NCBI GenBank assembly: GCA_021813805.1
Contig: JAKAJL010000019.1
Location: forward strand, 1-64,000
From: Pseudomonadota bacterium
Lineage (GTDB): Bacteria; Pseudomonadota; Alphaproteobacteria; Rhizobiales; Beijerinckiaceae
Length of the DNA: 64,000 nt
Direction of reading: 5' to 3'
The notes beneath the pieces were generated by a model. It worked only from the letters and a program-made list of their open reading frames with translations, searched no databases and was not told the DNA's origin. Positions within the stretch are counted from its first letter, which is position 1; every line of letters starts with the position of its first letter. Of this stretch, positions 22,693 through 26,938 are shown in pieces. Position numbers and translations under genes: made by a program.

Positions 22693-23331
22693 ATGGCCAA
22701 GGATCAGAACGCCCCAACCGACCATTCCGCGGCACTGAGGGGAAAATTGCAGGCTTTGTCGGAACGGATTTCGCTGTCGTTGAGCGCCGCCGTTCTGTCG
22801 TCCGAAATCGCCTTCGACGAATTGACTGTCGTTTTCGACGCGGCGAAATGGATCGAATCGTTGACCTTCCTGCGCGACAGCGGCTTCATCTGTTTCATCG
22901 ACCTGACGGCGGTGGACTGGCCGGCGCGGGAAAAAAGATTCGACGTGGTCGCGCATCTTCTCGATCCCAAAGCCAATCTGCGCATCCGCGCCAAATGCAT
23001 GACCGACGAGGAGACGCCGGTCGAGAGCTGTGTCGGCGTGTGGCCGGCGGCCAACTGGTTCGAGCGCGAAGCCTATGACATGTACGGCGTGCTCTTCTCC
23101 AATCATCCCGACCTGCGCCGGATGCTGACGGATTATGGCTTCGACGGTCATCCCTTGCGGAAGGACTTCCCGATGTCCGGCTATGTCGAAGTGCGCTACG
23201 ACGACGCCCAGAAGCGCGTGGTTTACGAGCCGACGCGGCTGACGCAGGAATTTCGGTCCTTCGATTTCCTTTCGCCCTGGGAAAACGCTTCCTATGAACT
23301 TCCTGGCGACGAGAAGGCGACCAGGAGCTGA
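22693..23331 (+). CDS. nuoC: NADH-quinone oxidoreductase subunit C
   Basis: A 212-residue 30-kDa subunit of the peripheral arm, which packs against NuoD near the quinone site. It has the diagnostic [22 protein letters not shown] and [15 protein letters not shown]. It is separate from nuoD, as in alphaproteobacteria and unlike the fused NuoCD of E. coli. The Met at 22693 follows GCTGAACC with a modest ribosome site. Confidence 0.97.
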
Positions 23332-23380
23332 GGCCGGAAGAACAAAGCGGCGAATCGACAATCCGATGGGCGAGCAGACA

Positions 23381-24571
23381 ATGTCCGAACAGAACCCGCG
23401 CACTTTCTCGATCAATTTCGGCCCGCAGCATCCGGCCGCGCACGGGGTCCTGCGGCTGGTGCTGGAGCTTGACGGCGAAGTGGTTGAGCGCGTCGACCCG
23501 CATGTCGGCCTGCTGCATCGCGGCACCGAAAAGCTGATGGAATCCCGCACCTATATGCAGAACACGCCCTATTTCGATCGGCTCGACTATTGCGCGCCGA
23601 TGAATCAGGAGCACGCCTTCTGTCTCGCTATCGAAAAGATGCTGGGCGTCGAGGTTCCCCGTCGCGGCCAGCTCATTCGCGTCCTTTACTGCGAAATCGG
23701 CCGCATCCTCTCGCATCTCCTGAATGTCACCACCCAGGCGATGGACGTCGGCGCGCTCACGCCGCCGGTCTGGGGTTTTGAAGAGCGGGAGAAGCTGATG
23801 GTGTTCTATGAGCGCGCTTCGGGCGCGCGCATGCACGCCAATTATTTCCGCCCCGGCGGCGTCGCCAAGGACCTGCCGGTCAAGCTGATCGAGGATATCG
23901 GCGCCTGGCTCGATCCTTTCATAAAGCTCTGTGACGACCTCGAAGAGCTTTTCGTCGAAAATCGCATTTTCAAGCAGCGCAATGTCGATATCGGCGTGGT
24001 GTCTTTGGAAGAATGCTGGAAATGGGGCTTCTCCGGTCCGGTCCTGCGCGGCTCCGGCGCCGCCTGGGATTTACGACGCGCCCAACCATACGAATGCTAC
24101 GAAGAGATGGAATTCGACATTCCCGTTGGCAAGCATGGCGATTGCTACGACCGGCAGGTGGTGCGGCTGGAGGAAATGCGCCAGTCGGTGCGAATCATGC
24201 GCCAATGCGTGAACAAGCTGCTGGAGCGCGCCAACGAAGGCCCGGTTCTGGCGCCGAATCAAAAGATCACGCCGCCGCGTCGCACGGAAATGAAGCAGTC
24301 GATGGAAGCGCTCATCCATCATTTCAAACTGTTCACCGAGGGTTTCCGCACGCCGGAAGGCGAAGTCTATGCGGCGGTCGAGGCCCCCAAGGGCGAGTTC
24401 GGCGTCTATCTGGTCTCGGATGGCACGGACAAGCCCTACAAGTGCAAGATTCGCGCGCCTGGCTTCGCCCACCTCCAGGCCATGGACATGCTGAGCCGCG
24501 GCCATATGCTCGCCGACGTCTCCGCCATCCTGGGCGCGCAGGACATCGTGTTCGGGGAGGTGGACCGGTGA
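23381..24571 (+). CDS. nuoD: NADH-quinone oxidoreductase subunit D
   Basis: A 396-residue 49-kDa subunit that forms the quinone-binding cavity with NuoB. It opens with [24 protein letters not shown], where the His lines the quinone site, then [15 protein letters not shown]. It closes with [37 protein letters not shown] prefer the ATG at 23381 to the one at 23366 because homologues start close to the [10 protein letters not shown] motif. The stop overlaps the GTG of a small membrane protein gene. Confidence 0.97.
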
Positions 24572-24780
24572 CCGTCGGCGAATCCCTGCGCAAGAACGCG
24601 CAATTCCTCCTGACCGGCTTCTGTTCGGCGATCGTCGTCCTCGTCATCATGCGCTGGTCGGACGGCGCGCCCTTGGTACAGCCGCAATCCGATTTCGGAA
24701 TCGTCATCGGGGCCATTCTGGTCGCAGGTTACTTGGTTTATCGCGATCTGCGCGACACAAGCGGAAAACAGTCATCATGA
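24568..24780 (+). CDS. Small two-helix membrane protein coupled between nuoD and nuoE
   Basis: A 70-residue protein starting at GTG, with GGGGAGG seven bases upstream. The start overlaps the nuoD stop (GTGA), and its own stop overlaps the nuoE start (ATGA). Two hydrophobic segments are visible, at about residues 11-29 and 43-58, joined by a short polar loop; the C-terminus is charged ([13 protein letters not shown]). This tight coupling on both sides argues strongly that it is real and made in step with complex I. I do not recognise the family. It could be an accessory or assembly factor, by analogy with unassigned small frames in other alphaproteobacterial nuo operons. Confidence 0.75.
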
Positions 24781-25445
24781 GCACGCGCCGTCTCGCTGAG
24801 AATCAGCCTGAAAGCTTCGAGTTCACGCCGGAAAACCGGGCCTGGCTCGACGCCCAGATCGCCAAATATCCGCCCGGGCGCCAGCAGTCGGCGGTGATCC
24901 CGGCCCTGTGGAAGGCGCAGAAGCAGCATGACTACTGGCTGCCGCAAAAGGCGATCGAGAAGGTCGCCGACATTCTCGGCATGCCTTACATCCGCGTGCT
25001 CGAAGTTGCGACCTTCTACTCGATGTTCAATCTGGAGCCGGTGGGGAAATATTTTGTCCAGCTCTGCGGCACCACGCCCTGCCTGCTGCGCGGCGCCGAC
25101 GCGATCATCCGGGTCTGCCAGGAGCGAATCGGGCCTCAGCGACAGGTGACGGGCGATGGAATGTTCTCCTGGGCTGAGGTCGAGTGCCTCGGCGCCTGCT
25201 GCAACGCGCCCATGGTTCAGATCAACGACGATTATTACGAGGATCTCGACGCCGCGAGCTTTTCGAAGCTGCTCGACGATCTCGCCGCCGGCCGCCCGAC
25301 TCATATTGGGCCGCAAAACGGACGCCTGCGCTCGGAGCCTTTCGGCGGCCTGACCTCGCTGACCGAATTCTACGGCGCCGATGGCAAGAGCGGCCCCTTG
25401 AGCGACATGAACGCCGCCCATCAGCCCGCCTGCCCGGAAAAGTGA
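24777..25445 (+). CDS. nuoE: NADH-quinone oxidoreductase subunit E
   Basis: A 222-residue 24-kDa subunit carrying 2Fe-2S cluster N1a. The ligands are in [12 protein letters not shown] and [16 protein letters not shown]. The N-terminal helical part has [14 protein letters not shown], typical of the family. The last 50 residues are a low-conservation extension (Gly/Pro-rich, ending QPACPEK), common in alphaproteobacteria. It works with NuoF and NuoG in NADH oxidation. The start overlaps the small membrane gene by four bases. Confidence 0.97.
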
Positions 25446-26757: not shown

Positions 26758-26806
26758 GAGGTTTCGCTTCGCTCGCGCAGGCGGGCGTGGCCAAAGGGTC
26801 AGTTTC

Positions 26807-26873
26807 GCATCGGCGAAGCCGATGCTAGGAGCGAATGCCAAAGAGCGTCGCAAGACGCCCGTCGGAGGACGGG
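26807..26873. repeat. Triple-hairpin intergenic element between nuoF and nuoG
   Basis: Three stems lie in a row: GCATCGGC/GCCGATGC around GAA (26807-26825), GCGTC/GACGC around a GCAA tetraloop (26845-26858), and CCCGTC/GACGGG around GGAG (26858-26873). The element interrupts an otherwise tight operon by 181 bases and looks like a REP-type palindromic repeat. It could slow ribosomes or stabilise or process the mRNA between NuoF and NuoG. Confidence 0.65.
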
Positions 26874-26938
26874 CTAAGGCCGAGCTGATCCGAGGGGCGC
26901 CTCGACCGCCCGGCGGGCGAGGCAAAAGGGAAAGAGTG

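Follow-up and report, generated by a model that had tools for sequence, protein, structure and literature searches.

A lineage-restricted gene for a predicted small membrane protein between nuoD and nuoE in Rhodoblastus and two related genera, and its possible tie to complex I

A small open reading frame between nuoD and nuoE is, judged from its conservation, a functional, lineage-restricted gene for a predicted membrane protein. We tentatively read its product as an accessory or assembly protein of complex I, which is the best of the explanations considered; the main rival, a real membrane protein whose function is unrelated to complex I, is a serious contender that we rank second. The tight fit of the gene between its neighbours looks like a property of the junction and does not, alone, make the small protein a complex I subunit.

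The small gene, its conservation and its predicted product

In the window (the whole stretch of DNA analysed, 64,000 nucleotides), the small gene, referred to here as family RB, occupies positions 24568..24780 of the forward strand, with a GTG start, 70 codons and a TGA stop. The surrounding operon runs in order from nuoA to nuoL according to Pfam, with nuoM and nuoN next on a reading of the ORFs. The longest open form of nuoD (23294..24571, forward strand) ends in FGEVDR-stop, and its stop shares four nucleotides with the start of the small gene, as GTGA (24568..24571, +). A Shine-Dalgarno (SD)-like GGGGAGG (24554..24560, +) lies within the nuoD codons for G-E-V, 7 nt 5' of the GTG. At the other end, the start of nuoE (24777..25445, +) overlaps the stop of the small gene, as ATGA (24777..24780, +). 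The coordinates, GTG start, length of 70 residues and both overlaps described in the sequence-only reading were all confirmed. The longest gap noticed among the nuo genes is one of about 180 nt from nuoF to the presumed start of nuoG (window 26758-26938), a start that is assumed and could truly lie further upstream.

An open frame by itself is weak evidence for a gene: when these 213 nt were shuffled 5,000 times with dinucleotides preserved, 32% of the shuffles had no in-frame stop, and the start and SD come free from nuoD, which would suit a chance ORF without a product. The searches for homologues speak against such an ORF. Using the single sequence, a homologue was found in 11 of 11 Rhodoblastus genomes and in 0 of 30 other relatives. 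A profile built from 15 sequences and run on 397 genomes of the family (43 genera), among them MAGs that may be incomplete or chimeric, retrieved 20 confident matches (E < 1e-25) in three genera (11, 5 and 4 genomes), the 11-genome genus being Rhodoblastus and the other nine carriers belonging to two other genera of the family. In this profile search each carrier genome had one confident match and no second confident copy, one of them (G538) also having a second, weak match at E 0.007. Only weak matches were found in 13 further family genomes, and the 14 family matches at E 0.007-0.05 were set aside as weak. In an order-wide search of 397 genomes, the only convincing matches were two members of the family; two others (E 7e-4 and 5e-3), short and partial and one of them with a stop, were set aside. 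A pattern scan of a collection of 84,980 species gave 14 loci, assigned to Rhodoblastus (7), uncultured Methylocystaceae (2), Hyphomicrobiales bacterium (2) and Proteobacteria bacterium (3). Conservation at this position in Hyphomicrobiales, which the sequence-only reading had proposed to check, is therefore found in 3 of 43 genera of the family but does not extend across the order.

All 20 homologues lie between nuoD and nuoE, 19 of them starting at the nuoD stop. Exact overlaps at both ends are present in 10 of the 11 Rhodoblastus copies, and in the four carriers of genus g44 the small ORF stops 41-49 nt before nuoE. Fourteen residues are invariant across the 20 proteins. In five non-overlapping pairs of Rhodoblastus copies, pN/pS was 0.30 in frame (Fisher p 4e-12), compared with 0.83 (p 0.37) in one of the other frames and 3.08 in the remaining one. 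What settles the status of the gene, and makes a chance ORF extremely improbable, is that 20 homologues share its frame and place and that purifying selection is seen in the stated frame only. Within the genus, median dN/dS was 0.31 for the small gene, 0.11 for the end of nuoD and 0.06 for the start of nuoE; the small gene is under selection, but a looser one than that on nuoD and nuoE. These results and the predictions below bear out the earlier description of a small two-helix, membrane-like protein encoded within the operon of complex I, and add that it is conserved.

The same data bear on a further alternative, in which the ORF would only pass ribosomes from nuoD to nuoE, or tune the dosage of nuoE, while the peptide is idle. 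The exact overlaps at both ends of the Rhodoblastus copies suit such a relay. We nevertheless consider it very improbable, given the purifying selection at the amino-acid level, the invariant residues and the gap before nuoE in the g44 carriers; moreover, a direct nuoD-nuoE overlap already does this job in relatives.

The most hydrophobic 17-residue stretches of the protein are residues 12-28 and 41-57, with two and three K/R at the ends and one in the loop. In all 20 members hydropathy picks out two membrane-like segments; the best two stretches are 12-15 residues apart, and 0-2 of the intervening residues are basic. AlphaFold2, supplied with the 20 sequences, modelled a helix hairpin with helices at 11-32 and 39-66 (mean pLDDT 84.5; 64.4 to 84.5 across the five models). 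On these predictions, the protein is probably a two-helix membrane hairpin with both ends inside. Its short loop is the best conserved part, with the motif QPQSDxG; R29, G33, Q38, P39, D42 and G44 are invariant.

The small protein had nothing above the cut-off in Pfam or NCBIfam, a PDB profile search gave 0 matches at E up to 10, and Foldseek with the hairpin model returned 13 rows, the best at E 5.5. Two of these noise-level rows were mitochondrial complex I entries and were given no weight. Homology to a known complex I accessory subunit was not found in Pfam, NCBIfam, the PDB profile search or Foldseek. Titles and abstract starts of the literature matches listed did not report the small protein, and none of these matches offered proteomic data or a structure for Rhodoblastus complex I.

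Start signals and inserts at the nuoD-nuoE junction

Besides the loci of the genus, junctions were cut from 70 stretches of the family (142 family genomes had a NuoE match), a non-random sample chosen by genus with extra junctions near carriers. NuoE was matched in 189 genomes of the class, and 40 of these, drawn from the higher-ranking part of the match list and likewise not a random sample, made up a class set. With the nuoE start extrapolated from the alignment, nuoE lay no more than 10 nt from the nuoD stop, or overlapped it, in 31 of these 40; the remainder had a short gap (4) or an insert of at least 120 nt (5). Among the 80 rows of the family tree set, fewer than 120 nt separated nuoD and nuoE in 42, the RB gene was present in 17 and other inserts in 21.

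In all 126 distinct loci nuoD ends in D-R-stop. When the R codon has A, G or T as its last letter, the TGA after it completes ATGA, GTGA or TTGA, and the SD core is spelled by the nuoD codons for G-E-V. SD-like 4-mers were present at the nuoD end in 38 of 45 insert-free loci, in 24 of 32 short-gap loci and in 45 of 49 loci carrying an insert, counts that stand without a shuffled control; 18 of the 20 RB loci have one, and none was found in the other two carriers. A start codon at -4 occurred in 33/45, 19/32 and 39/49 of these classes, respectively, and in the insert-free loci it is often nuoE's own start. The GTG and ribosome site of the small gene are part of the conserved end of nuoD, FGEVDR-stop. 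They are not independent signals because they consist of nuoD codons, common also in insert-free loci. Both the GTG and the 'strong ribosome site' that the sequence-only reading had credited to the small gene are thus present, but they belong to the nuoD C-terminus and are frequent without an insert.

Other genes use this place as well. Among 29 loci with non-RB inserts, an ORF of at least 60 aa starts at -4, -1 or 0 from the nuoD stop in 22; 18 of the 29 have one that, in addition, ends -12 to +30 nt from the nuoE start, and no ORF of this length starts at the nuoD stop in the other seven. Leaving out the eight loci of a second two-helix family (A2), 17 of 21 start at the junction and 13 of 21 also adjoin nuoE. 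Pfam identified Uma2, DUF559 and SnoaL-like ORFs among the inserts, the SnoaL-like one from the class set; these have no evident tie to complex I. DUF559 and the SnoaL-like ORF adjoin nuoE, and Uma2 does not. Further inserts encode Cys-rich proteins that were sorted by eye and are labelled CDRFE-type here. Also by eye, EGYDIK-type proteins, which begin much as signal peptides do and have a core resembling EGYDIKAAF, were seen in other genera (L025, L037, L038, L047 and L058).

The A2 family was found in genus g45, in 8 of 248 genomes searched (L052-L055, L077, L100-L107). Its proteins resemble RB in having two hydrophobic segments within 71-77 aa and in their place at the junction, but differ in their conserved residues, with an FW loop in A2. 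Aligned with hhalign, the two families scored 16.6 (shuffled mean 10.7) over 38 columns, with a probability of 27%, or 3% with larger sets. A common origin of the two hairpins is not established, as 4 of 200 block shuffles reached the same score.

In R. sphagnicola (L086:2769-3014, also L007), an extra ORF of 81 aa with two hydrophobic stretches and no Pfam match was observed between nuoD and the small gene. It has an ATGA overlap with nuoD and a 14-nt overlap with the small gene, which retains an ATG and an SD-like GGGGAGG, the latter within the end of the 81-aa ORF.

These observations change the meaning of the double coupling. The sequence-only reading had found this coupling difficult to account for other than by production of the protein in proportion to complex I. 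This argument fails, with nuoE directly at the nuoD stop in most of the class set and unlike inserts using the same overlaps. The double coupling is probably a legacy of the nuoD-nuoE arrangement and is a poor guide to stoichiometry. Since the two genes adjoin in 31 of 40 class genomes, any ORF entering the space would be expected to preserve the relay to nuoE, and the need to do so would suffice to explain the double coupling.

The rival that we rank second can be read against this background. A passenger, here a small membrane protein that works independently of complex I, could well account for the locus; it would sit at the nuoD end for the ready start site and steady expression offered there, and its overlap would be kept so that nuoE is translated. 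The diverse ORFs with the same overlaps (Uma2, DUF559 and SnoaL-like), SD-like 4-mers at the nuoD end with or without an insert, and the patchy presence of the gene all favour this explanation. Against it, the 20 homologues occupy one place in three genera with no second confident copy, whereas a free passenger might move. We also entertain, as an unlikely possibility, that FGEVDR-stop is a built-in launch site that repeatedly captures small genes, some of whose hairpins, including RB, are now partners of complex I. Under this doubtful account, capture would be repeated in the family and occasional across the class, and the junction would be a nursery for accessory subunits.

Distribution and history in the family

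The 20 carriers are not monophyletic when 29 genomes are placed on a NuoD/NuoE tree (AU p 8e-76). Genus g44 is mixed, with the gene in four genomes and no insert in at least three. Between genera, the small proteins are 50, 45 and 54% identical and the NuoD proteins 75, 72 and 74%, respectively; g33-g44 is the closest genus pair for the small protein (54%) but not for NuoD. The small-gene tree (71 columns) splits g44, whose genomes form a group in the NuoD/NuoE tree. An old presence with repeated loss would fit these data and is favoured because the divergence of the small gene is roughly in step with that of NuoD. A recent transfer into g44 may be proposed instead and is less favoured. Given the g33-g44 pair, the split of g44 in the gene tree and carriers that do not form one clade, transfer may nonetheless have occurred and gain is not separable from loss.

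In the neighbouring genera g34 and g58, nuoD and nuoE overlap or abut in 9 of 10 loci, and the tenth (L069) has a CDRFE-type insert. Particulate methane monooxygenase-type genes are present in 9 of 10 tested genomes of these two genera. A link to methane oxidation was considered and rejected: PF02461 was matched in 0 of 20 carriers and 9 of 34 non-carriers, all nine in two neighbouring genera, a pattern that reflects at most one historical event. A link to photosynthesis was likewise dropped, as reaction-centre genes (PF00124) were matched in 9 of 20 carriers and 9 of 34 chosen non-carriers and the source genome had no match, so there is no strict tie. Rhodoblastus is known for phototrophs, and we observed no reaction-centre match in 6 of its 11 genomes (G000, G002, G003, G006, G007 and G010), the source genome included.

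A candidate role in complex I and its parallels

In the reading that we prefer, still tentatively, the small protein would be dispensable and specific to its lineage, and would serve complex I either as an accessory component or in assembly. Ribosomes finishing nuoD would restart on the small gene and then on nuoE, the insert having taken over what may have been an older nuoD-to-nuoE relay. The protein would be kept at the junction through serving complex I, a conjectural and unproved step, and could lie as an accessory or assembly helper against the membrane arm.

The fixed place of all 20 homologues, with one confident match per genome and 19 starts at the nuoD stop, counts in favour of this role, as does the R. 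sphagnicola gene, which keeps its SD-like sequence and ATG despite the 81-aa ORF in between. The selection in frame, the 14 invariant residues, the modelled hairpin, a divergence roughly in step with that of NuoD and the precedent of the PIMT subunit of Paracoccus (PMC11522691) also count for it. Counting against it are a coupling common to other inserts, the restriction to three genera, the mixed state of g44, an evolution faster than that of nuoD and nuoE, the lack of a fold match and the two carriers without an SD-like 4-mer. Linkage to nuoD-nuoE is constant among the homologues, and other ORFs share the same place; as a tie to complex I, it is suggestive only. Place alone is weak evidence because unlike ORFs occur there, selection is looser, presence is patchy and the known accessory types are encoded elsewhere.

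Should the protein prove to bind complex I, Rhodoblastus, of which collections hold named strains, would be a simple system in which to see how a core respiratory enzyme acquires a new membrane subunit. Even if it does not, the locus illustrates that double translational coupling is no proof of membership in a complex. The start signals at this junction are those of nuoD, and other genes of dissimilar kinds make use of them.

Cyanobacterial NdhL is a small NDH-1 protein with a few membrane helices. Its likeness to the small protein is of a general kind; no PDB chain matched the small-protein profile at E up to 10. In the source genome, Pfam matches to NDUS4, NDUFA12 and the zf-CHCC domain of NDUFS6 lie on other contigs, outside the operon. 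NDUFS4, NDUFS6 and NDUFA12 are described as supernumerary complex I proteins in alphaproteobacteria (PMC11522691); these differ from the small protein in belonging to other Pfam families, which it does not match, and in being encoded elsewhere in the source genome. PIMT is described as a lineage-specific complex I subunit in Paracoccus, where CI-PIMT of Paracoccus denitrificans was identified from unassigned density and mass-spectrometry candidates (PMC11522691). CI-PIMT, a protein of the L-isoaspartyl methyltransferase type that is bound to the hydrophilic domain of the complex, is unlike a 70-residue hairpin in kind of protein. The Paracoccus example shows that complex I can gain subunits confined to one lineage (PMC11522691).
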